This document shows positions 21,440-50,111 of a stretch of 64,000 nucleotides of DNA, piece by piece. The DNA lies in NCBI GenBank assembly GCA_030710605.1, contig CP092886.1, positions 51,576,390 to 51,640,389 on the forward strand, given 5' to 3'. The first letter of the stretch is position 1. Each line of letters starts with the position of its first letter. The notes beneath the pieces are model-generated. The model was not told where the DNA came from. It did not search any database and saw only the letters and a list, made by a program, of their open reading frames with translations. This DNA comes from Cordylochernes scorpioides. Its lineage: Eukaryota > Arthropoda > Arachnida > Pseudoscorpiones > Chernetidae. The position numbers and the translations under genes were made by a program.

Positions 21440-22237
21440 TAAACTAACCAGAATTTTAATACCTTCATAAGTATTAATTCAAAATTGATTTCCTTTATTC
21501 ACTCTCGATAATTAATAAAAGTGGATTTCACTCTTTATTGAACTTTTCCTGTGGTTCGTTACCAAGTAATATTTTCTCACCAAGTAAAGTACCATTTTGG
21601 CTGCCGGTTTGGGCACATTATGGGCCCATTTTCTGAAGCACCACCTTGTTCTCGAAGATCGGTGAAACAAAGTTTCAGGGCTGATTTAACTTGTGCGTCT
21701 TTTCCACTCCGTTTCCTCTTTTTGATTGGGTCTGGATCCCATTCACCTCTGTCTTCCTACTTCAGCGTTTTTGCTTCAAGTCTGCAGAAATCCTTCAAAA
21801 AAACTGTTTAAGGAATCCGAAAATAAATCTCAAGCTCTCTGTACACATCCTTGCTGTGCCTTTAGCTGGAACCAATTTTATATTAGGGATACGACACATT
21901 ACATATATCACATTCGTATGTTGAATATATATAGCTTATTTTTTTTTATTTTTTTTTAATATATATACGAGTAACATATCATTTATATGCACTGTAAAAA
22001 TATGATATATCAAATTAATATATAAAAATATAAATTAAACAAGAGATAGATTAGCGCGTCATCTCTTATTGGATATGTAAGCTATTTTGCATATGTTTTT
22101 CGTTTCATATAAACCAATTTTCTACTATCGTTTCTGGAACAATAAAAATTATGGTAAGAAAATCTTATCATATATATATATATATATATAAGTGAAAATT
22201 GGTATAAAAGTGAATTTGTACTTGAATCAGGTGGATA
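21440..22237. other. spacer, possible decayed repeat at 21540-21880
   Basis: The patch 21540-21880 is GC-richer and open in several plus frames but matches no family I recognise. The rest is AT-rich. Confidence 0.45.
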
Positions 22238-22362
22238 AATCAATAAAAAAGGCATTTCCTGATCCTACAATTAAAAATCAACGATTAGTTTATATTTATT
22301 CCGATAGATGGCGCAAGCCATCAGCATACTTTAGTTGCATGATCAGGAAATGCCTTTTTTCT
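22238..22362. mobile_element. family P-like palindromic repeat, divergent
   Basis: Inverted arms AAAAAAGGCATTTCCTGATC (about 22240) and its complement (about 22342) enclose GATGGCGCAAGCCATC, a variant of the family P palindrome. Confidence 0.6.
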
Positions 22363-22860
22363 TAATATATTTAAATGTCTATATATTATCCTATTATTTT
22401 GTACTCATTAATATAAATTAAGTTCTTAATTTATCTAAAAAGCAACATTTAGAATTTGTAGAAATAAAATAAGGAAAAAGAAGATATGAAGTATAAATAC
22501 ATTGATATTTAATAAGGGTTTAATTTTTTGATAAAGGTAAATCTCTATATATGAGAAGTATAAAATTAGGTTATTTGAAAAGAAACATAATAAGCATATT
22601 TGTATAAAAGGTTTACATTTTAAATATAAAAATACGAAGATGTGTGTTCTTATGGTGTGAGTAAACACGTTGTTTATTTATTTATGTAAATAACCCTTTG
22701 TGTTATAACTTATTTTATCCAAAAGATAAGGAGTAGATACACCATACACGCCACAATTACGAGAAAATACGGTTTAAAATGCATACCTCTTTAGTAATAA
22801 ATAAGGAAGAAGTGTTAAGGCCAATATATTCTTTGAAAAATATAATTGTCAACGCTTAGT
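22363..22860. other. AT-rich spacer, no gene seen
   Basis: The minus frame 22435-22668 encodes a hydrophobic low-complexity peptide typical of AT-rich noise. Confidence 0.5.
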
Positions 22861-24790
22861 TAATAAATCTCTTGAGAGATGGTAGTAATCTTCATATTTA
22901 GCGTATAGTTATTATTTATTCTGAGAGATGGTAGTAAGCTTCGTATATTTTAGCCTTTAGTTACTAGATCTTCTGAGAGATCGTAGTGATTTTCGTATAT
23001 ATAGAGTTTAGTTATTGGCTCGTCTGTCAGATGTTAGTATTCTTCGTATTTGGCGTTTAGTTATTAGTTATTCTGAAAGATGGTAGTGAGCTTCGAATAT
23101 TTAGTGTTTAGTTAAATGGTTCGCTTGTGAGATCGTAGTATACCTTGTATTTAGCGTTTAGTTGTTAGTTATTCTGAGAGATGGTAGTGAACTTCGAATA
23201 TTTAGTGTTTAGTTAAATGGTTCGCCTGTGAGATCGTAGTATTCCTTGTATTTAGCGTTTAGTTATTAGTTATTCTGAGAGATGGTAGTGAACTTCGAAT
23301 ATTTAGTGTTTAGTTAAATGGTTCGCCTGTGAGATCGTAGTATTCCTTGTATTTAGCGTTTAGTTGTTAGTTATTCTGAGAGATGGTAGTGAACTTCGAA
23401 TATTTAGTGTTTAGTTAAATGGTTCGCCTGTGAGATCGTAGTATTCCTTGTTTTTGGCGTTTAGTTATTAGTTATTCTGAGAGATGGTAGTGAGCTTCGA
23501 ATATTTAGTGTTTAGTTAAATGGTTCGCTTGTGAGATCGTAGTATTCCTTGTATTTAGCGTTTAGTTATTAGTTAATCTGACAGATGGTAGTGAATTTCG
23601 AATATTTAGTGTTTAGTTAAATGGTTCGCTTGTGAGATCGTAGTATTCCTTGTATTTAGCGTTTAGTTGTTAGTTATTCTGAGAGATGGTAGTGAGCTTC
23701 GAATATTTAGTGTTTAGTTAAATGGTTCGCTTGTGAGATCGTAGTATTCCTTGTATTTAGCGTTTAGTTGTTAGTTATTCTGAGAGATGGTAGTGAACTT
23801 CGAATATTTAGTGTTTAGTTAAATGGTTCGCTTGTGAGATCGTAGTATTCCTTGTATTTAGCGATTAGTTATTAGTTAATCTGACAGATGGTAGTGAGTT
23901 TCGAATATTTAGTGTTTAGTTAAATGGTTCGCTTGTGAGATCGTAGTATTCCTTGTATTTAGCGTTTAGTTGTTAGTTATTCTGACAGATGGTAGTGAGC
24001 TTCAAATATTTAGTGTTTAGTTAAATGGTTCGCTTGTGAGATCGTAGTATTCCTTGTATTTAGCGTTTAGTTGTTAGTTATTCTGAGAGATGGTAGTGAG
24101 CTTCAAATATTTAGTGTTTAGTTAAATGGTTCGCTTGTGAGATCGTAGTATTCCTTGTATTTAGCGTTTAGTTGTTAGTTATTCTGAGAGATGGTAGTGA
24201 ACTTCGAATATTTAGTGTTTAGTTAAATGGTTCGCTTGTGAGATCGTAGTATTCCTTGTATTTAGCGTTTAGTTGTTAGTTATTCTGAGAGATGGTAGTG
24301 AGCTTCAAATATTTAGTGTTTAGTTAAATGGTTCGCTTGTGAGATCGTAGTATTCCTTGTATTTAGCGTTTAGTTATTAGTTATTCTGAGAGATGGTAGT
24401 GAACTTCGAATATTTAGTGTTTAGTTAAACGGTTCGCTTGTGAGATTGTAGTATTCCTTGTATTTGGCGTTTAGTTATTAGCTATTCTGAGAGATGGTAG
24501 TGCGCTTCGAATATTTAGCGTTTAGTTAATGGTTGACCTGTGAAATCGTAGTATTCTCTGTATTCAGCGTTTAGTTATTAATTATTCTGATAGATGGTAG
24601 TGAGCTTCGTATATTTTTTTGCGTTTAGTTACTAGTTCCTCAAAGACATCGTATTGATATTCGTATATTTAGCGTTTATTTAATGGCTGTTATATGGCGT
24701 CTGTTATATGGTAATCATCTTCGTATTTAGCGTTTGGTTAATGATTCTTCTGAGAAATGGCTGTATTCCTCTCATTAACTTTATTTAATG
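22861..24790. repeat. 101-bp satellite, about 19 units, built of two half-repeats
   Basis: The unit joins TTAGTTATTCTGAGAGATGG-type and TTAGTTAAATGGTTCGCTTG-type halves of about 50 bp that still resemble each other. The period is 101 bp (for example 23161 to 23262). Both ends of the array (22861-23040, 24480-24790) are more divergent and show the halves as separate monomers. Confidence 0.95.
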
Positions 24791-31528: not shown

Positions 31529-31565
<37 letters not shown>

Positions 31566-32980
31566 GATAAAATAATTATCTGCGCTTATTTTTCATATTA
31601 TATATAAGGAACATTTCTACAAATTTCTAAATGGAAATGGACTGAGAGATTGAAATAAGAAAGGATTGTTTCAACATTTGTAAATTAGTTCAATGAGGAT
31701 AATACTAAACCTTCAAACACGATGAATATTGAAGGCTCACCAAACTGTCTCGAATATGTCTTTCTTTGATTAGAGTAATTGTTTTAATCCTTCTTCTTCT
31801 ATTATAAATATTTTATCAAAACTCATTCAGAATAAATTTAATTCTTTTTAAACATTTGGTATCGTTATATATGTTTAACACATTGGATTCCTTAAAAAGA
31901 GTGTTGGTTTCTGTCTCAGGTGGACAATAATAATGGAAGGACGGAGGACACATGGCGCACAATCTTGTTAAAATATATCATTTATGTACGAAGATTTGAA
32001 ATTGCGACGAATTGTTATATTGGTAATCTCAAATATTAATATCCCCCAAATAGTTGTTGACAATGTTTTGAGCAACATTCAAAATGTCAATGTCAACATA
32101 ATATAAAACTTTATTCTTTCACTAATATTCGCCGTCTGAGACTGGGACATTGAGCTCTTGTTAATTGCCGCTGCTTTAGGTAATACGCTGGCCACAGTTT
32201 GAGTTCTTTTTATCTTATATTCTGTTTAAATAAGAGAAATACTAGATTTGAAAATTGTAAAAACAGAGAACTTCATTCATAAGATTTAGGAGTAGATTGC
32301 AGCATTTCTGTTTTGAAAACAAAATCACCTTGAGCTATAGAAATATCCTATCAGAAAATTCCGTTAGGAGTGTAGCAATTTAAATATTTAAGTAGGGTAG
32401 AAATTGCTCTCTATTTACCTACTCAGAATACTTTATTTAAAGCATCACTCAGATCCTAATGGAATCTACTTAATGCTTGCATTAGAATCAATAAGTGCCA
32501 TTTGAATATCTCAATAATAGCATTAGGAAAATATCGAAGTATGCAATTTTGTTCGGTAAGAATCGCAATCAATACCTAATTTCATAATTAATTCAAAATG
32601 TATTCATAAATATTGAAAATGATGATACAAGATATATTTAGCCAGGCATTTATGGTAACAATATATTGATTGAAAATAAATATATTAAAATATAAATAGA
32701 TAGAGGACAAATGGTTCCGGGAAAAACGTAATTTTATATTTTAAAAAAGAATGTTTTTACAAAAGGCTCTGTTAAAAATGTCCTAAAAGGAAGTAATAAT
32801 CCGTCCAACCACCACCATTAAATGAAGATATTTGTATGGACAAAAATAGAAGCGGGGCAAACGTTATTCATGAATTCTGATTGGAAGTCTGAATTTGATG
32901 CACTTTAATTTTCAACAGGATTGATCAAATGTCATGTTCAGGCTTCTAGGCAGTTTTGTAATTATCACACAAGGTTTTTT
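31216..32980. other. AT-rich spacer with PLE-end-like hairpins at 31340-31500
   Basis: 31421-31480 (TGCATATATTGGA ... TCCAATATATGCA) resembles the outer end of the PLE derivative at 52.8 kb. 31342-31410 is a second AT-rich hairpin. No gene was recognised. Confidence 0.5.
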
Positions 32981-33255
32981 ATCCATGGAAGCAATGGTCG
33001 CCTCTCCCGTCAAAATTAACGTCAGAAACTGACGCCATCTATTGACCGTCGCCTGACGAGGGCCATTAGCCAGAAACCAAGGTCTCTAGGTGGACGCTTA
33101 TCAGTTTGCCAAAGTTGGTGTTGTGGCTTTGTCACCGACCCGATGCCGCTAGTTGCGGCGACGGTCAATAGATGGCGTCAGATTCTGACGTTAATTTTGA
33201 CGGGAGAGGCGACCATTGCTTCCATGGATTAATTTCCTCCCGGCAAATTTTCCAT
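32981..33255. mobile_element. long-TIR MITE flanked by a 12-bp direct repeat
   Basis: Arms of about 75 bp (ATCCATGGAAGCAATGGTCG inward to GACGCCATCTATTGACCGTC) are inverted at 33160-33239. CAAGGTTTTTT occurs on both sides (32970 and 33256), likely a target-site duplication. A degenerate relative lies at 36265-36412 and a fragment at 58225-58290. Confidence 0.82.
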
Positions 33256-34079
33256 CAAGGTTTTTTTAAATATCAGAGTGAGTATAGGAAAAGCTTTTAT
33301 TAAAATATATATCCCATGAATATGTTTACATATTTATAAATACTGAATACATTTATTGATCAAAACATTAATGCCAATCGACCTAGTGATTGTTGCTCCA
33401 ACTAGGGTAGGCAATACAGAAGCAAACGGCGAGGTGACAAATATTTAATAGGTTGTCATAGATATTTGGGACTCGAGATATTCATGTATAAGTATTTCCA
33501 TTTTACGTATATTTGTGAGTCAGAAGTCGAAGGCGATTGGGAAATCAAATGGGATTACTTAAATGTTGGCTCAAGTTAGTTTAGAACGATTCTCACCTTA
33601 TATTTACATAGCAAGAAGATACTAGGAGAGAACACATAGGACAAAGAGCTATGAAGATGTCGCGAAGTAAAATGACAATTTAAAAATTAGAATTAGGAGC
33701 ATATAGTTAAATTTAAATAAGATGAAGTAGAAAACGACCTTAAACGTAGCTTTGTGTAAATGGCATATAATATTATCCTGAAATAGTCTTTGTATATATG
33801 TGTTCATATAAGACGTCCGTTAAATATATAGAACAGACTGAATAATATTAGGCCAATCGTGTGATATATTAAATGTAAAGTAGAAATTAAAGTAAGCAAT
33901 TAAAAATAATGACCATTCATTGAATAGCTTTATTGCGTAGAAAATGAATAACGTTTTTAAAATGTTTTCTTTAAGTTTTTCTACGACATGGATTAGATAT
34001 AAAAAATAACTATCAAAGCAATATATTAGACCATTTCCCTTTTATAATTACCTTCAGGTAATGGATGTGTTTATGTGTG
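33256..34079. other. AT-rich spacer, no gene seen
   Basis: No coding signal or repeat family was recognised. Confidence 0.5.
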
Positions 34080-35205
34080 TAAATATATAAAATATGGCCA
34101 TGCAAAATCTATAATAAAATATTGCTTGGCAAGATTAGGCCAATCCCATTATTCATGTATATGCCAATATATTATAAAGCCATGCGATATCTATAAGGAT
34201 TATTTTCCAAACAATGTTAAATCATCAGTGATATATATGTGCGTCAATATATTATAAAACTATGCTATATATATATAAATCTGGCGGAGATGTAGCCAAT
34301 CCCGTTGTACTAGCGGGTATATCAATATATTTTAAAAACATGCAATAACTATAAGAGTCATTGCTGTGAAAGATTGCGATTCCGCGATATATGTATGCAT
34401 TAATATATTATGAAACTCTGCAATATCTATAACCTTAACTTGATTGGCAAGAAATGGCCTGCCTCGTATTTCATGCACTGGCTTATTTATCAGTAACCTA
34501 TGCAATATCTATAATGAAACCTATCTAGCGAAGATTAAGCCAATCCTGTGGTACTCGTGAGTATATTAATATATTGTAAAAATATGCAATATCTATAAGG
34601 AAACCTATCTGGTGAAAATTAAACCAATCCTGTGGTACTCGTGGGTATATCAATATATTGTAAAACTATGCAATATCTATAAGGAAACCTATCTGGTGAA
34701 AATTAAACCAATCCTGTGGTACTCGTGGGTATATCAATATATTGTAAAACTATGCAATATCTATAAGGAAACCTATCTGGTGAAAATTAAACCAATCCTG
34801 TGATACTTGTGGGTATATCAATATATTATAAAGCCATGCAATATCTATAAGGAAACCTATCTGGTGAAAATTAAACCAATCCTGTGGTACTTGTGGGTAT
34901 ATCAATATATTGTAAAGCCATGCAATATCTATAAGGAAACCTATCTGGCGAAGATTAAGCCAATCCTGTGGTACTCGTGGGTATATCAATATATTGTAAA
35001 ACTATGCAATATCTATAAGGAAACCTATCTGGTGAAAATTAAACCAATCCTGTGATACTTGTGGGTATATCAATATATTATAAAGCCATGCAATATCTAT
35101 AAGGAAACCTATCTGGCGAAGATTAAGCCAATCCTGTGGTACTCGTGGGTATATCAATATATTGTAAAACTATGCAATATCTATAATGAAACCTGGCTGT
35201 GGCCA
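34080..35205. repeat. 84-bp satellite, about 13 units
   Basis: The unit runs TATCTATAAGGAAACCTATC ... TATCAATATATTGTAAAACTATGCAA. Copies are nearly identical from 34560 to 35190 and decay leftward. Because 84 is divisible by three, the array gives long repetitive frames on both strands (34612-35055); these are not genes. Confidence 0.95.
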
Positions 35206-35580
35206 AGATTAGGCTAGAGCTGGACGCTGGTGGCGTGCGTTACGTCCACGCTAGGAAGTTTAACCCGATTATACGTTGTAATGAAAGAACCTCTCACGAA
35301 AGTGTTTCGTGACCCCAGCTACATTTTTGTGGCGACTCATTATAGAGCAAAATTTGCGCTCCTCTATTAATTTATCTTCTTGTTGCATTTTGAGAGTTTT
35401 ATTCATGATTGAGCTTTTTAATATTTTTCATAAATACGTACTAGAAAACCCTTTTTAAAACTCTTGATAGGACGATTTTTTTTCATTTTATAATATTTTT
35501 GAAAGTTAAATATTTCTGAAAAAGAGAGGAAGAATTATCAACTAAACGCTTATTAAATGAAAGGTTTGTTCCATAATATA
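35206..35580. other. spacer, no gene seen
   Basis: A GC-richer stretch at 35210-35350 follows the satellite without a recognisable feature. Confidence 0.45.
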
Positions 35581-35800
35581 CTCATGGGCAAAACTCCTAA
35601 AGAAGTTGAAAGCCTTTGATATCGCTGGTCGTCTTTTATTTTTATTTTTTTTAAGGAGACAAAGGCAATTTTGTTCACCCTTGGTTATCTCGCGTGCCTT
35701 CAATAAATATCACTGTGTATCAAGTCTCTTTCAAAGTTATTGCCTGAATCCCGATAAACATGCTAAAATTTATAACTTCCTTGAGTTTTGTCCATGAGTG
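35581..35800. mobile_element. 220-bp Tc1/mariner-type MITE
   Basis: The left end CTCATGGGCAAAACTC and the right end (reverse complement) CACTCATGGACAAAACTC form inverted repeats with TA on both sides (35579-35580, 35801-35802). The plus frame 35606-35797 lies inside and has no domain. Confidence 0.8.
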
Positions 35801-35802
35801 TA

Positions 35803-37035
35803 TTTAGACAATCAATTATTTTGTGAAATCAAAAAGGCCAACTACGTATGCATTCGGGCTGTTGGCCTTTGTTAACGTGGTGCACGCAGAACCTCAATGT
35901 CAATTAATTTTATTGTTTTTTTTTTAAATATGGTGCAGATTTATTTCTATATATATATATATACGGTAGATCCCATTTTTAGTGTTCAGGGAATCTCAAC
36001 TTTCTCAGAGTTCTTACGCCCAGAAGTTGGATTGACTTAAAGATAGTTTTGAAACTTTAGTAACGAAATATTTTGAGCTCAATTGGGCTGTACAAACAAC
36101 GAGGATTTATCAAAACACATATATTAGCTGTCTCTCTTCAAGTGCAACCTAGTTAATGAATATACAAGGAATAGTTATGTACAGGGTTCCATAAATTGAG
36201 TATGATTCTATATAAATTTGGAATTTTTCCATTGTTCTATGAAAATAATAGTTGCATCTTCTGCCAAAAAGACGTTAAAGCTCTAGATGCCATCTTTTGA
36301 CCGTTGCCGCAAAACTATCGGCCTTAGGTCGGTGACAAAGCCACACCAGCTTTGGCAAACTGAGAAGCGCCCATATGGATACCATGGTTTCAGTCTAATG
36401 GCCCTCGACAACCCAGGGAGAGCCTTAATTCTATGAGATCCAAAAGGGATCAAATGGATTCTTCAAAATATTCCAAATAAGTGACTAGCTAGCAAAGTGC
36501 TGGCATATATAAAAATAAATAAATATTCCTATAACATATTTTTCATGTATGTGCGACACGCTAGAACTCTATATTTCTATTATTTAGCTTGAGGTGACAC
36601 TTTAATGAGACTTAGAACTGCCTGTCGTTCTGGACCTGTTCGTAGAACGGGCTGATGTCTTAGTAAAATAATATCGAGAAAGTTAAACAAATATGATGAA
36701 TTTCAATATATTGCTTAAATAATAGTTTAGAACTTGGAAAAGGAGAATAGCCATCCCAACAACCAACACGTGCAAGAACCCGAAACACATTTGAGAAACT
36801 TCAAACCCTATTGAGAAATTGGATAGAATTTTTGATGCATACAATGTAAAATAAAATATCGTAATTATTCATAATTTGACTCTGTATACAACAAATATGT
36901 TTCCTATTGATGTTTGAATTGGCCAGGCTAGAAAACAGAGGCCCCAATAAATATCTAAACTTATTTAGAATATGATTAGATATTATCCATTGTTTGTTAA
37001 ATAATGGGGGTTTAGTAGGCAATACAAGTTCTATA
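35803..37035. other. spacer with a decayed MITE at 36265-36412
   Basis: 36265-36412 aligns in inverted orientation with the core of the 32981-33255 MITE (ATGCCATCTTTTGACCGT, GGTCGGTGACAAAGCCAC, TTTGGCAAACTGA). The remainder is AT-rich. Confidence 0.55.
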
Positions 37036-37039
37036 AGAC

Positions 37040-37569
37040 TTAGTACCTAATACGTTTTATATAAAGGACATATTGCCCTGCATGGCTTATATAAAATACT
37101 TAGTATTTTAGTACGTACCCAGTACGTGGTCTTTAAAAGACTTAGTACTCAGTACGTTTTATATAAAGGACTTATTACCCAATATGTACTATTTAAGGAA
37201 ATATTGAAGAGTTATCTAGCAAGTATTAAATAAAGATCTTGACGTAGTATCCAGTATGTGTTCTATAAAAGACTTAGTACCCAAAATGTGTTCAATAAAG
37301 GTTTTAGTACCTAGTATGTGTTATATGAAGAACTTAGTACCCAGTATGTGTTCTATAAAGGGCTTAGTACCCAATATGTACTATTTAAAGAAATATTGAA
37401 GAGTTATCTAGCAAGTATTAAATAAAGATATCTTGACGTAGTACCCAGTATGTGTTCTATAAAGGACGTAGTACCCAGTATGTGTTTTATAAAGACTTAG
37501 TGCCCAGTATGTGTTTTATAAAGGACTTAGTACCCAGTATGTGTTCTATAAAGTACTTAGTTCCCAGTA
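37040..37569. repeat. 30-bp satellite, block 1
   Basis: The unit is GGACTTAGTACCCAGTATGT plus GTTCTATAAA. The block is degenerate on its left and includes a repeated AAGAGTTATCTAGCAAGTAT segment (about 37208 and 37391). Its last monomer is cut after CCCAGTA by a Helitron. Confidence 0.92.
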
Positions 37570-38223
37570 TCTACTTATATAATTGCCTTATTCTGAAGCT
37601 CACGGATAGAATGCGCGCCCATTGGCTGCCGCCGGCGAACACGTGTCCTCCCTGCCCCCCTCTAGAAAACCCTGTTATCAGCTGTGTGATACATACACCT
37701 GTCTATAGCGGCCACTCTAGACAACCCTGTTATCAGCTGTGTGATACATCCACCTGTCTATATAGACCACCCTGTCTATAGCGGTCACCTTAGGCAACCC
37801 TGTTATCATTAGTGTGTTACATTCACCTGTCTATACAGACCACCCTGTCTATAGCGGTCACCTTAGGCAACCCTGTTATCAGCAGTGTGATACATACACC
37901 TGTCTATACAGACCACCCTGTCTATAGCGGCCACTCTAGACAACCCTGTTATCGGCTGTGTGATACATACACCTGTCGATACAGACCACCCTGTCTACAG
38001 CGGCCACCCTAGACAACCCTGTTATCGGCTGTGTGATGCATACACCTGTCTATACAGACCACCCTGTCTATAGCGGCCAATCTAGACAACCCTGTTATCG
38101 GCTGTGTGATACATACACCTGTCTATATAGACCGCCCTGTCTATAGCGACCACCCAAGACAACGTTTTTAAAATATATTCGCACACGGGTAAACCCCGGG
38201 CGTTGCCCGGGCCATTCGTCTAG
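37570..38223 (+). mobile_element. Helitron 1 with 73-bp internal minisatellite
   Basis: It starts TCTACTTATATAATTGCC after host A and ends with the hairpin CCCGGGC-GTT-GCCCGGG, eight bases, then CTAG before host T. The flanks CCCAGTA and TGTGTTCTATAAA rejoin to a perfect 30-bp satellite monomer. The interior holds a 73-bp tandem unit (CCTGTTATCAGCTGTGTGAT ... TCTATAGCGGCCACTCTAGA). There is no transposase, so it is non-autonomous. It lacks the (GTCT)n stretch seen in the other two copies. Confidence 0.88.
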
Positions 38224-38858
38224 TGTGTTCTATAAAGGACGTAGTACCCAGTATGTGTTTTATAAAGGACTTAGTGCCCAGAATGTGTTTTATAAAGGAC
38301 TTAGAACCCAGTATGTGTTCTATAAAGGACGTAGTACCCAGTATGTGTTCTATAAAGGACTTAGTACCCAGTATGTGTTCTATAAAGGACGTAGTACCCA
38401 GTATGTGTTTTATAAAGGACTTAGTACCCAGTATGTGTTCTATAAAGGACTTAGTACCCAGTATGTGTTCTATAAAGGACGTAGTACCCAGTATGTGTTT
38501 TATAAAGGACGTAGTACCCAGTATGTGTTTTATAAAGGACTTAGTACCCAGTATGTGTTTTATAAAGGACTTAGTACCCAGTATGTGTTCTATAAAGGAC
38601 TTAGTACCCAGTATGTGTTCTATAAAGGACGTAGTACCCAGTATGTGTTTTATAAAGGACTTAGTACCCAGTATGTGTTCTATAAAGTACTTAGTTCCCA
38701 GTATGTGTTCTATAAAGGACGTAGTACCCAGTATGTGTTATATAAAGGACTTAGTACCCAGTATGTGTTCTATAAAGGACTTAGTACCCAGTTTGTGTTC
38801 TATAAAGTACTTAGTACCCAGTATGTGTTCAATAAAGAATTTGACATTGTACATAATA
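38224..38858. repeat. 30-bp satellite, block 2
   Basis: About 20 monomers, then a short tail (TTTGACATTGTACATAATA) before Helitron 2. The unit length divisible by three yields repetitive frames of 220-230 codons that are not proteins. Confidence 0.95.
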
Positions 38859-39822
38859 TCTACTTATATAATTGCCTTATTCTGTCTGTCTGTCTGTAAG
38901 TCTGAAGCTCACGGATAGAATGCGCGCTCAATTGGCTGCCAGGGAACACGTGTCCTCCCTGCCCCCCTCTAGACAACCCTGTTATCAGCACTGTGTTACA
39001 TCCACCTGTCTATAGCGGCCATTCTAGACAACCCTGTTATCAGCAGTGTGTTACATCCACCTGTCTATACAGGTCACCCTGTCTACAGCGGCCACTCTAG
39101 ACACCCCTGTTATCAGCTGTGTGATACATCCACCTGTCTATACAGACCACCCTGTATATAGCGGCCATTCTAGATAACCCTGTTATCAGCTGTGTGATAC
39201 ATACACCTGCCTATACAGACCACCCTGTATATAGCGGCCATTCTAGACAACCCTGTTATCAGCTGTGCGATACATCCACCTGTCTTTACAGACCACCCTG
39301 TCTATAGCGGCCACTCTAGACAACCCTGTTATCAGCTGTGTGATACATCCACCTGTCTATACAGACCACCCTGTCTATAGCGGTCACCTTAGGCAACCCT
39401 GTTATCAGCAGTGTGATACATACACCTGTCTATACAGACCACCCTGTCTATAGCGGTCACCTTAGGCAACCCTGTTATCAGCAGTGTGATACATACACCT
39501 GTCTATACAGACCACCCTGTCTATAGCGGCCACTCTAGACAACCCTGTTATCAGCTGTGTGATACATCCACCTGTCTATACAGACCACCCTGTCTATAGC
39601 GGTCACCTTAGGCAACCCTGTTATCAGCAGTGTGATACATACACCTGTCTATACAGACCACCCTGTCTATAGCGGCCACTCTAGACAACCCTGTTATCGG
39701 CTGTGTGATACATACACCTGTCTATATAGACCGCCCTGTCTATAGCGACCACCCAAGACAACGTTTTTAAAATATATTCGCACACGGGTAAACCCCGGGC
39801 GTTGCCCGGGCCATTCGTCTAG
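38859..39822 (+). mobile_element. Helitron 2 with 73-bp internal minisatellite
   Basis: It has the same termini as Helitron 1 (A|TCTACTT ... hairpin ... CTAG|T), plus a (GTCT)n stretch near 38882-38897 and more 73-bp units (964 bp in total). Confidence 0.88.
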
Positions 39823-40307
39823 TGTGTTCTATAAAGGACGTAGTACCCAGTATGTGTTTTATAAAGGACTTAGTACCCAGTATGTGTTTTATAAAGGACT
39901 TAGAACCCAGTATGTGTTCTATAAAGGACGTAGTACCCAGTATGTGTTCTATAAAGGACGTAGTACCCAGTATGTGTTTTATAAAGGACTTAGTGCCCAG
40001 TATGTGTTTTATAAAGGACTTAGTACCCAGTATGTGTTTTATAAAGGACTTAGTACCCAGTATGTGTTCTATAAAGGACTTAGTACCCAGTATGTGTTCT
40101 ATAAAGGACGTAGTACCCAGTATGTGTTTTATAAAGGACTTAGTGCCCAGTATGTGTTTTATAAAGGACTTAGTACCCAGTATGTGTTCTATAAAGTACT
40201 TAGTTCCCAGTATGTGTTCTATAAAGGACTTAGTACCCAGTTTGTGTTCTATAAAGTACTTAGTACCCAGTATGTGTTCAATAAAGAATTTGACATTGTA
40301 CATAATA
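39823..40307. repeat. 30-bp satellite, block 3
   Basis: It is nearly identical to block 2 but a few monomers shorter, with the same tail before Helitron 3. Together with the Helitron it forms the second copy of a higher-order repeat. Confidence 0.95.
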
Positions 40308-41499
40308 TCTACTTATATAATTGCCTTATTCTGTCTGTCTGTCTGTAAGTCTGAAGCTCACGGATAGAATGCGCGCTCAATTGGCTGCCAGGGAACACGT
40401 GTCCTCCCTGCCCCCCTCTAGAAAACCCTGTTATCAGCACTGTGTTACATCCACCTGTCTATAGCGGCCATTCTAGACAACCCTGTTATCAGCAGTGTGT
40501 TACATCCACCTGTCTATACAGGTCACCCTGTCTACAGCGGCCACTCTAGACACCCCTGTTATCAGCTGTGTGATACATCCACCTGTCTATACAGACCACC
40601 CTGTATATAGCGGCCATTCTAGATAACCCTGTTATCAGCTGTGTGATACATACACCTGCCTATACAGACCACCCTGTATATAGCGGCCATTCTAGACAAC
40701 CCTGTTATCAGCTGTGCGATACATCCACCTGTCTTTACAGACCACCCTGTCTATAGCGGCCACTCTAGACAACCCTGTTATCAGCTGTGTGATACATCCA
40801 CCTGTCTATACAGACCACCCTGTCTATAGCGGTCACTCTAGGCAACCCTGTTATCATCAGTGTGTTACAATCACCTGTCTATACAGACCACCCTGTCTAT
40901 AGCGGGCACTTCAGTCAACCCTGTTATCAGCAGTGTGATACATACACCTGTCTATACAGTCCACCCTGTCTATAGCGGCCACCCTAGACAACCCTGTTAT
41001 CGGCTGTGTGATACATACACCTGTCTATAGCGACCACTCTAGACAACCCTGTTATCAGCTGTGTGATACATCCACCTGTCTATACAGACCACCCTGTTAT
41101 CATCAGTGTGTTACATACACCTGTTTATACAGACAACCCTGTCTATAGCGGTCACTTTAGGCAACCCTGTTATCAGCAGTGTGATACATACACCTGTCTA
41201 TACAGATCACCCTGTCTATAGCGACCACTCTAGACAACCCTGTTATCAGCAGTGTGATACATACACCTGTCTATACAGACCACCCTGTCTATAGCGGCCA
41301 CCCTAGACAACCCTGTTATCGGCTGTGTGATACATACACCTGTCTATAGCGGCCACTCTAGACAACCCTGTTATCAGCTGTGTGATACATCCACCTGTCT
41401 ATACAGACCACCCTGTCTATAGCGACCACCCAAGACAACGTGTTTAAAATATATTCGCACTCGGGTAAACCCGGGGCGTTGCCCGGGCCATTCGTCTAG
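40308..41499 (+). mobile_element. Helitron 3 with 73-bp internal minisatellite
   Basis: The termini are as in Helitrons 1 and 2. At 1192 bp it is the longest because of extra 73-bp units. Its right flank (TGCTTTAATAAATGACTTAG) is a decayed 30-bp monomer, marking the edge of the satellite. Confidence 0.88.
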
Positions 41500-41719
41500 T
41501 GCTTTAATAAATGACTTAGAACGCAATGTTGAAACAATTTTAAGATTATTCGAAAGCTATACATGGCGTGGCACTTAATTCTGTTTTTACAGACCTCAAT
41601 CGAGATTGGTTAAGATACGAGAGTCTTTATTGTTTCTTATATGTTATAAACATCGAAAATAACATTAATACACTCTCAATACCTTTATTTTACTTTTTAT
41701 AGACCAAGGAATCTTCGTA
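41500..41719. other. spacer before the scaffold gap
   Basis: Degenerate satellite for about 35 bp, then AT-rich sequence without features. Confidence 0.5.
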
Positions 41720-41819
41720 NNNNNNNNNNNNNNNNNNNNNNNNNNNNNNNNNNNNNNNNNNNNNNNNNNNNNNNNNNNNNNNNNNNNNNNNNNNNNNNNN
41801 NNNNNNNNNNNNNNNNNNN
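41720..41819. other. assembly gap of 100 N
   Basis: Exactly 100 N, the conventional length for a gap of unknown size. Order and distance across it should not be trusted. Confidence 0.99.
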
Positions 41820-46732: not shown

Positions 46733-48727
46733 CTATATATGTCTATTAATACTGTTATGTCTTAAAGAGAGCAACGCCTCGACGACCAATCTTTTGTATT
46801 TGCTTTTGATTCCTGAGTAATATGCCTGTGGATGAGAGGTATCAAAAGAATGTCCTGTCTGTTGAATGTGTTGCACTATGAGAGATCTGGGCTCACTGTT
46901 TCTAACGTTTCTGTGGTGTTCTTCTATCCTATCCTTAATTATTCGGCCTGTCTCTCCTATATACAAACTGTTGCAATCTGAGCATTTTAAGGAATACACG
47001 GAGTTTGTAAGAAATGGTAGGGTAATGGGAAAACTGTTTTTGGTGATGAGGTTCCTAACTATTGTTTCCAATTTAGGAGTGTTGGTGTAATAGGTGCGGA
47101 TTCCGTACTTGTTTTTTAAGTGTCTAGAGATGTTGGTACTATAGTTAGAGTATGGAATGATACAAGTCGATCTATAAGTCTGACTATTTAGCTGCTGTTG
47201 GGGATTGTGGAAATGTCGGAGAATGAAGTTTCTGGGGTAACCTGAGTTCATTAGGTGATTAATCACATTTTGTGTCTCTGTTTGTTTAAATTCAGATGTT
47301 GAGCAGTGAGTAAAAATACGTTTCGAAAGAGTTTTGACAGTATTAATTTTATGGCTAAGGGGGCAGTATGAGGAATAGTGTATATAGGAGGGATGAAAGG
47401 AGGGCTTATAGTGTACGTTGGTGATATACCTGCTATTTTGTTTAGTAATCATGATATCTAAGAAAGCTAAGGAAAAATTGTTTTCTTTCTCTATTGTAAA
47501 TTGGATGTCCGGAAATAATGAATTTAATTTGATATGTATACTGTCCAAGGATTCTGTTTTGACTATGCAGAAAATATCGTCTATGTATCTAAACCAAGAA
47601 TAAATATCTGCTGGGAAATGGCCTGTAATTAAACTATCTACTTTTCGCATAACTATTTCAGAGAGTGGTGAGGACAAAGGGCTACCCATTAGAGTGCCCT
47701 TGGATTGCCTGTAATATCGTTTATCAAAATTGAAGATACTATTGCTTAGACAGATCGATATTAAGGTGGTTAACTTAGATATCATATCTGCTGTATACCC
47801 GTGCGACCGGAGGAATTCTGTGGTGCATCCTATGAAAAGGGAGTGGGGGAGACTGGGGTATAGATTGATGACATCAAAAGATATCATAAGACTATTGGGG
47901 ACAACCGGTAATTGTTGTATATGGGCTAAGAATTTAGGTGTGGAAGAGATGGACGTCGAGGCTGTGCCCTCTTTAAGTATGGGTATGATTATCTTAGCTA
48001 AGTACTGAGCTAACGGGGCTGTGGGGGAGAGGTGAAAGGCTACTATTGGTCTAAGGGGGATATTTATCTTATGTACCTTAGGGAGGCCGTAGATATAGGC
48101 CTGACCATGCAGATTCGAAAGGAAACCTTGGAGTTCATCTGTTGTTATAATCTTATTCCTGCATAGGGTCCTAAGTTCTTTTTTGTACTTGGAATTCGAG
48201 GCAATTTGTTCTTCCGCTGTGGCCGGGGTAAATACATCCGAGTTGTTCAATATTTGATTCATTCCTGAGATGTAGTCTGTAGTGTTCATAATGACGGTTC
48301 TAGATCCCTTGTCCGATCTTGTGATAACTATGTTATTATTTTTGGACAGTGTTCTTATAATCTGGTTGGCTTGATGGCTATTGGCTGGGTTGTTTGTAGG
48401 TCTGTTTAAGACAGATATGACGTGGTTCCTAATTGAATGCTTATCATGTATGTTCAGGCCCGTAATGGATGACTCTATTCCTGCTATTAATGAGATTTTG
48501 TCCAGTTTGGATGGGTATCTGTGTTTGAGGCCTTTTGAAAGTATGCTGGCCTGATCTGAGGAAGGTACAAAGCTAGATAAATTCAAAATTGAATGCTGTT
48601 GATCTTGGGGAGATAGGCATACTTTGTATTTCTTGGACCAGAATGAGAGCTTATTGCGGTGTCTGGTGTCTAGCATTGAGTCTTGGGTTTTTATTTCACT
48701 AGTGATGTCTATTAGTAATTCTGCCAT
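46733..48727 (-). CDS. Penelope-like RT plus GIY-YIG endonuclease protein (nearly full)
   Basis: This 664-residue frame encodes the PLE retrotransposition protein: a telomerase-related reverse transcriptase fused to a GIY-YIG endonuclease. Visible motifs in order: an N-terminal NIVITRSDKGSRTVIMN block; LPKVHKINIPLRPIVAF; motif A SFDVINLYPSLP; motif B KGTLMGSPLSSPLSE (the second copy has KGTPMGSP, the usual form); motif C WFRYIDDIF with the catalytic Asp pair; AFLDIMI; then CSDC, LYIGETGRIIKDRIEEHHRN and the C-terminal SINRHI. A 2-bp AT insertion near 46737 relative to the other copy creates the stop and removes the last 11 residues. ATG48727 sits on the inversion junction, so the native N terminus may extend further. 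The RT core looks intact; activity is doubtful because of the motif B change and the C-terminal cut. Confidence 0.93.
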   Translation of the reverse strand: MAELLIDITSEIKTQDSMLDTRHRNKLSFWSKKYKVCLSPQDQQHSILNLSSFVPSSDQASILSKGLKHRYPSKLDKISLIAGIESSITGLNIHDKHSIRNHVISVLNRPTNNPANSHQANQIIRTLSKNNNIVITRSDKGSRTVIMNTTDYISGMNQILNNSDVFTPATAEEQIASNSKYKKELRTLCRNKIITTDELQGFLSNLHGQAYIYGLPKVHKINIPLRPIVAFHLSPTAPLAQYLAKIIIPILKEGTASTSISSTPKFLAHIQQLPVVPNSLMISFDVINLYPSLPHSLFIGCTTEFLRSHGYTADMISKLTTLISICLSNSIFNFDKRYYRQSKGTLMGSPLSSPLSEIVMRKVDSLITGHFPADIYSWFRYIDDIFCIVKTESLDSIHIKLNSLFPDIQFTIEKENNFSLAFLDIMITKQNSRYITNVHYKPSFHPSYIHYSSYCPLSHKINTVKTLSKRIFTHCSTSEFKQTETQNVINHLMNSGYPRNFILRHFHNPQQQLNSQTYRSTCIIPYSNYSTNISRHLKNKYGIRTYYTNTPKLETIVRNLITKNSFPITLPFLTNSVYSLKCSDCNSLYIGETGRIIKDRIEEHHRNVRNSEPRSLIVQHIQQTGHSFDTSHPQAYYSGIKSKYKRLVVEALLSLRHNSINRHI

Positions 48728-48730
48728 GTC

Positions 48731-50111
48731 TAAGGTACATAAGATAAATATCCCCCTTAGACCAATAGTAGCCTTTCACCTCTCCCCCACAGCCCCGTTA
48801 GCTCAGTACTTAGCTAAGATAATCATACCCATACTTAAAGAGGGCGCCGCCTCGACGTCCATCTCTTCCACACCTAAATTCTTAGCCCATATACAACAAT
48901 TACCGGTTGTCCCCAATAGTCTTATGATATCTTTTGATGTCATCAATCTATACCCCAGTCTCCCCCACTCCCTTTTCATAGGATGCACCACAGAATTCCT
49001 CCGGTCGCACGGGTATACAGCAGATATGATATCTAAGTTAACCACCTTAATATCGATCTGTCTAAGCAATAGTATCTTCAATTTTGATAAACGATATTAC
49101 AGGCAAACCAAGGGCACTCCCATGGGTAGCCCTTTGTCCTCACCACTCTCTGAAATAGTTATGCGAAAAGTAGATAGTTTAATTACAGGCCATTTCCCAG
49201 CAGATATTTATTCTTGGTTTAGATACATAGACGATATTTTCTGCATAGTCAAAACAGAATCCTTGGACAGTATACATATCAAATTAAATTCATTATTTCC
49301 GGACATCCAATTTACAATAGAGAAAGAAAACAATTTTTCCTTAGCTTTCTTAGATATCATGATTACTAAACAAAATAGCAGATATATCACCAATGTACAC
49401 TATAAGCCCTCCTTTCATCCCTCCTATATACACTATTCCTCATACTGCCCCCTTAGCCATAAAATTAATACTGTCAAAACTCTTTCGAAACGTATTTTTA
49501 CTCACTGCTCAACATCTGAATTTAAACAAACAGAGACACAAAATGTGATTAATCACCTAATGAACTCAGGTTACCCCAGAAACTTCATTCTCCGACATTT
49601 CCACAATCCCCAAGGGCAGCTAAATAGTCAGACTTATAGATCGACTTGTATCATTCCATACTCTAACTATAGTACCAACATCTCTAGACACTTAAAAAAC
49701 AAGTACGGAATCCGCACCTATTACACCAACACTCCTAAATTAGAAACAATAGTTAGGAACCTCATCACCAAAAACAGTTTTCCCATTACCTTACCATATC
49801 TTACAAACTCCGTGTATTCCTTAAAATGCTCAGATTGCAACATTTTGTATATAGGAGAGACAGGCCGAAGAATTAAGGATAGGATAGAAGAACACCACAG
49901 AAACGTTAGAAACAGTGAACCCAGATCTCTTATAGTGCAACACATTCAACAGACAGGACATTCTTTTGATACCTCTCATCCACAGGCATATTACTCAGGA
50001 ATCAAGAGCAAATACAAAAGATTGGTCGTCGAGGCGTTGCTCTCTTTAAGACATAACAGTATTAATAGACATATAGACATCCCAGATATATACAAAGCAA
50101 TATTGCCATAG
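48731..50111 (+). pseudogene. PLE protein, 5'-truncated second copy
   Basis: The coding sequence starts in mid-protein at KVHKINIPLRP and runs through motifs A, B (KGTPMGSP, canonical), C (YIDD) and the GIY-YIG domain (CSDC...LYIGETGRRIKDRIEEH) to the full C terminus ending DIPDIYKAILP. It lacks about the first 215 residues, including the N-terminal region. The frame is open upstream to 48624, but that part is the antisense of the minus copy and not PLE protein. Differences from the minus copy are few, so the two arose recently from the same or closely related source. Confidence 0.92.

Follow-up and report, generated by a model that had tools for sequence, protein, structure and literature searches.

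Three Helitrons, H1, H2 and H3, were found within a 30-bp tandem array in the analyzed stretch of the Cordylochernes scorpioides genome (hereafter the window; 64,000 nt, G000:C24:51576390-51640389), and their arrangement is most probably the outcome of two Helitron insertions into a local minisatellite, followed by an unequal homologous exchange that made H2. By its sequence, H2 is a hybrid that resembles H3 in its 5′ half and left flank and H1 in its 3′ half and right flank. The features, all on the + strand and numbered by window position, are as follows.

37003 to 37569, +, left part of the 30-bp array, with a degenerate outer edge
37570 to 38223, +, Helitron H1, 654 bp, probably inserted independently as a member of a 654-bp subfamily, recognized by its ends, five other 654-bp copies and an empty site
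37698 to 38163, +, 73-bp minisatellite within H1, 6.4 copies
38224 to 38858, +, array block A, 635 bp, 21 full 30-nt units (the last degenerate) plus 5 nt
38674 to 38733, +, unbroken unit pair that equals the H1 flanks when joined (30+30 nt), 0/60 mismatches
38859 to 39822, +, Helitron H2, 964 bp, hybrid with an H3-type 5′ half and an H1-type 3′ half
39350 to 39387 (H2 492-529), +, simplest exchange interval, covered by exact matches to both H3 and H1
39823 to 40307, +, array block B, sister of block A, 485 bp, 16 full 30-nt units (the last degenerate) plus 5 nt
40308 to 41499, +, Helitron H3, 1192 bp, in the right-edge unit, recognized by its ends and an empty site in the paralogue (L014)
41500 to 41719, +, right array edge with unique flank; a 100-N gap (41720-41819) comes next

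The originally predicted Helitron bounds, A/TC...CTAG/T (the slash marks the element boundary), were confirmed at all three elements (3/3; ends at 37570/38223, 38859/39822 and 40308/41499), which thus carry TC and CTRR termini. The three have in common the 5′ sequence TCTACTTATA and the 3′ sequence CCATTCGTCTAG, each preceded by A and followed by T. The sites lie between A and T without target-site duplication, as is canonical for Helitrons, with empty sites available for H1 and H3; the TT (T-rich) insertion site, a trait of Helentrons and HINEs, was not found at these A/T sites. From their lengths of 654-1192 bp, H1, H2 and H3 are probably non-autonomous. An extra match to TCTACTTATA at 1495, which enters a TA microsatellite, was taken as chance. 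A 3′ hairpin, also predicted, can form, with a 7-bp stem ending 12 nt short of the end in H1 and a weaker stem in H3, but the folds are little better than those of shuffled sequences (H1, z −1.59, 13/200 shuffles equally good; H3, z −0.46, 59/200), and the hairpin was dropped as statistical evidence. The inner 73-bp minisatellite differs in copy number, as had been claimed, between H1 and H2 (6.4 and 10.4 units), whereas in H3 the repeat is split across several rows.

The family has many copies: a search of the 2.62-Gb assembly (24 sequences) with 37570-39822 as the query gave 4,657 first-look candidates, of which the best 40 were scored. For comparison, 58 other loci (L003-L008, L018-L046, L048-L070) were taken as the best among the matches listed; they are not all separate elements, since L056 and L061 lie ~2.4 kb apart. 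The Helitron ends were indeed present in these copies outside the array, with CTAG required and 5′ ends found by likeness to the window ends, and no copy with other boundaries appeared in this sample, which was picked by that same likeness. Among the distinct 5′ flanks of the 58-locus sample, A was found at −1 in 58/59 and T at −2 in 27/59; T at +1 followed the required CTAG in 42/42 distinct 3′ flanks of a first set and 21/21 of a second. The exception at −1 is L022, with a G, which adjoins the 3′ end of a different Helitron; by eye, at 1270-1510 of L022 an H1-type Helitron abuts the CTAG end of another Helitron that itself lies within a tandemly doubled stretch. Five other 654-bp copies of H1 at 98% identity were found among the matches listed (L018-L022; two on C1, two on C24 and one on C4), and a sixth 654-bp relative lies on C5 (L042, 95%). 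No clean same-length subfamily of H3 was found among the best 40 scored of the H3 search, in which matches over 1-1192 were 85-90% identical, those over 1-1117 or 1-1132 were 87 to 94% identical and some partial matches reached 97-98%. Overlapping matches at C3:35868634-35878302 point to an element with a 73-bp repeat expanded to ~10 kb; if true, this would be a case of a satellite arising within a Helitron.

The host array looks like a local minisatellite, and the term satellite used for it in the original prediction overstates its extent: abundant genomic arrays were not found, as a search that skips very common words returned only two (5 matches), both on C24 and ~168 kb apart. The second is an inverted duplicate at C24:51445246-51445952, in which the array stretch reads without a Helitron. 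This paralogue matches the window left of the array at 95.8% identity over 1,387 aligned bases (35 gap columns) and right of the array at 96.5% over 200 bases, and the other colinear BLAST pieces longer than 900 bases are about 87 to 96% identical, a range that leaves aside out-of-register matches within an 84-bp repeat. The wider region, window 31531-41719 against C24:51431001-51460000, is a complex inverted segmental duplication, and much of window 31666-35214 has two matches in the paralogous region. By eye, the paralogue has one copy of a segment from the array's left edge, of which the window has two (about 37186-37241 and 37377-37433).

That the flanks of H1 rejoin to exact array sequence, as predicted, was borne out by the unbroken unit pair in block A. 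The same joined 30+30 nt had a best match of 3/60 mismatches in the paralogue, and the joined 60+60 nt had best matches of 3/120 in the window and 8/120 in the paralogue. Flanks forming an exact monomer are restricted to H1, because H2 and H3 share a degenerate left unit and the right flank of H3 is the degenerate edge of the array. For H3, an alignment of 302 columns, interrupted by two 1-base gaps, carries the joined flanks across the join in the paralogue. This empty site makes H3 look like a separate insertion, and H1 looks like one too, given its same-length copies. Contraction of the array may have removed an older H1 from the paralogue. The same test was non-discriminating for H2, the flanks of which may never have been adjacent: in array DNA, an alignment with a 5-column gap runs across their join too.

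Comparison of H2 with its neighbours showed a division into two parts. Positions 1-529 differ from H3 at 1 base, which separates exact runs of 115 and 413 nt, and the last 143 nt are identical to H1. In ungapped comparisons, which included the 58 loci although some of these do not contain the H2 part compared, H2 117-529 matched H3 best (0 mismatches; at least 2 in the 58 loci) and H2 822-964 matched H1 best (0 mismatches; 7 in H3 and at least 4 in the 58 loci), while the last 80 nt had 0 mismatches to H1, 3 to H3 and 1 to the nearest of the 58 loci. On the left, H2 and H3 are flanked by identical copies of a degenerate unit; the right flank of H2 begins like that of H1. The hybrid fit has some blemishes, and the 3′ half of H2 departs from a plain copy of H1: H2 contains three matches to the H1 stretch that starts at 255 (107, 130 and 154 nt), the 3′ half includes a 101-nt exact run to H3 (H2 648-748), and some of its 60-nt tiles (e.g. 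at 676) are one base closer to H3. With so many family members in the genome and an array rich in preferred sites (40 regex matches in 36900-41720), three independent insertions followed by gene conversion could be imagined to give H2 its hybrid look; this history is extremely improbable, as each half of H2, together with its adjoining flank, is common to a different neighbour.

The switch from H3-type to H1-type sequence falls inside the 73-bp minisatellite and not at a Helitron end, and unequal exchange is favoured over tandem rolling-circle products for this reason. Under the latter, the 3′ hairpin would have been bypassed, array DNA copied and the process restarted, so that elements and blocks came from one transposition; the unit boundary would be expected at the Helitron end and H2 would be of a single type. 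Tandem Helitron arrays of bats and silkworm formed via termination bypass are mentioned in a passage of PMC4067079, and the sections on flanking DNA in PMC4778049 give its capture in about 11.7% of Helraiser events. H3, however, occupies a site that is still empty in the paralogue, and we regard the rolling-circle route, one of the two routes of spread considered originally, as very unlikely here.

A higher-order repeat of about 1.6 kb had been proposed, and alignment reduced it to a single duplicated segment, 38224-39822 (1,599 bp) against 39823-41499 (1,677 bp). The claim that Helitrons were inserted into the array and amplified with it is supported as insertion for H1 and H3, and as amplification for H2 in the form of one duplication. 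Repeated sequence, the 100-N gap 220 bp past the end of H3, and the use of an assembly as the one source of sequence leave a small chance that two elements or haplotypes were wrongly joined, creating H2 and one array block. Against such an artefact, H2 is unlike both of its parents, with 1 changed base in the H3-like half and a distinctive inner repeat pattern, and the two array blocks are dissimilar at several units, with unequal unit counts and some different variants. A plain false duplication would not yield these differences, whereas a two-haplotype join might.

For the favoured history of insertion and unequal exchange, we propose that a local 30-bp minisatellite received two separate Helitron insertions, H1 inside the array and H3 in the right-edge unit, both of which would have taken the single A/T phase of the monomer with a preferred downstream ATAA. 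H1 of one chromatid would then have paired with H3 of the other in an unequal homologous exchange, and a crossover within their 73-bp repeats would give a duplication product in which H1 comes first and H3 last, with the hybrid (5′ half from H3, 3′ half from H1) between them and an array block on either side of it. The observed order of elements and blocks matches this product predicted from one H1/H3 exchange. The array blocks and the inner repeat of H2 would have been altered by later copy-number change, and subsequent slippage or exchange probably lies behind the peculiarities of the H2 3′ half and the block differences. Exchange, rather than other homology-based repair, is likely to have produced the duplication, presumably in the germ line. 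The locus is an unusually clear natural record of an array that takes in transposons and then duplicates one, comprising a paralogue that retains the empty site, two distinguishable insertion subtypes and a hybrid marking the point of exchange.

The most interesting by-product of the analysis is a spaced target motif. In 40/53 sampled 3′ flanks, pooled from both sets, ATAA starts 7-9 nt after the A/T step. The motif was recognized in the first set (24/32 flanks with ATAA at +7 to +9; mean of within-flank shuffles 2.69, with 0/20,000 reaching 24) and then tested on the second set, fetched with H3 (16/21; shuffle mean 1.93, 0/20,000 reaching 16); the two sets are not fully independent, as both come from one family and the best among the matches listed, with a few flanks in related repeats. 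ATAA started at +7, +8 and +9 in 16, 5 and 3 flanks of the first set and in 6, 10 and 0 of the second. Among the remaining 13 flanks, 10 have ATAT, AATA, TATA or ATAA nearby. The 3′ flanks have an A+T fraction of 0.98 across +8 to +10, against 0.43 at +13, and a G stands six bases past the first A of ATAA in 22/40. The counts were made outside the window and paralogue loci (L001, L002, L009-L017, L047). In the pooled filtering, the 58 loci gave 58 distinct flanks, then 57 after one near-duplicate was taken out and 53 after removal of four TA-microsatellite flanks; in the first set, 42 flanks distinct by 30 nt were reduced to 37 by 14 nt, then to 36 and 32.

The 30-bp monomer has two A/T steps per orientation, and A/TGTGTTCTATAA is the only one of these four to be followed by ATAA inside 20 nt (at +9); at the H3 site, A/TGCTTTAATAA, ATAA lies at +8. 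H1 and H3 both use the monomer phase bearing ATAA. Chance alone would give two insertions the same phase one time in four, as there are four combinations of step and orientation; under the target motif, a common phase is expected. We consider it slightly better than an even bet that the transposase reads a one-sided, spaced target (A/T, ATAA at 7-9 nt and often a G beyond) and not merely AT-rich DNA, that minisatellites bearing the motif serve as many-site landing pads, and that the inner repeats let neighbouring elements recombine into higher-order repeats. If so, target choice and element anatomy would jointly build such repeats. The positioned ATAA is a concrete, testable statement on target choice in one Helitron family.

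Several known systems resemble the present one. Helraiser (Helibat) of bats, as described in sections of PMC4778049, likewise has TC...CTAG ends, an AT target dinucleotide and a preference for AT-rich DNA within about 20 bp, mostly on the 3′ side; an ATAA positioned 7-9 nt downstream is not stated for Helraiser in those sections, and the spaced motif may be a sharper form of this known AT-rich tendency. The non-autonomous DHH_Mothra of rice shares the 5′ TC, the 3′ CTAG and hairpin, the A/T site and inner tandem-repeat blocks, and its changes in unit number are ascribed, in an excerpt of PMC4683698, to slippage or unequal crossing-over. There, the repeat number varies within one element, whereas here exchange between neighbouring elements would duplicate an entire segment. 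Cg_HINE of the Pacific oyster is also a rolling-circle element with a satellite-like centre, and some searches with its joined flanks reach repetitive regions; according to parts of PMC7492417, it belongs to the Helentron superfamily and prefers TT sites, in contrast to the TC/CTAG ends and A/T sites found here. DINE-TR1 of Drosophila appears to be another rolling-circle element with a satellite-like centre. The system had been called an unusual nested one; rolling-circle elements with inner tandem repeats are already published, to judge from the same excerpts (PMC4683698, PMC7492417). A full-text literature search for Helitrons together with monomers and higher-order repeats found nothing, though the arrangement and the motif may already be in print. 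The locus is a real and well-resolved example of known processes, with a common Helitron family, a local minisatellite and one recombinant duplicate.

Elsewhere in the window, nine open frames were scanned, of which two matched mariner-type transposases, two reverse transcriptases (one just below the Pfam cut-off) and one a kinesin motor, and four had no match. The reverse-transcriptase frames form an inverted pair at 46733-50111, which we presume to be Penelope-like elements; one of them has a GIY-YIG match slightly below the cut-off. A further tandem repeat, with a 101-bp unit in 16.5 copies, lies at 22949-24616, around which a strong skew of G over C was observed (0.327 in 22001-24000).
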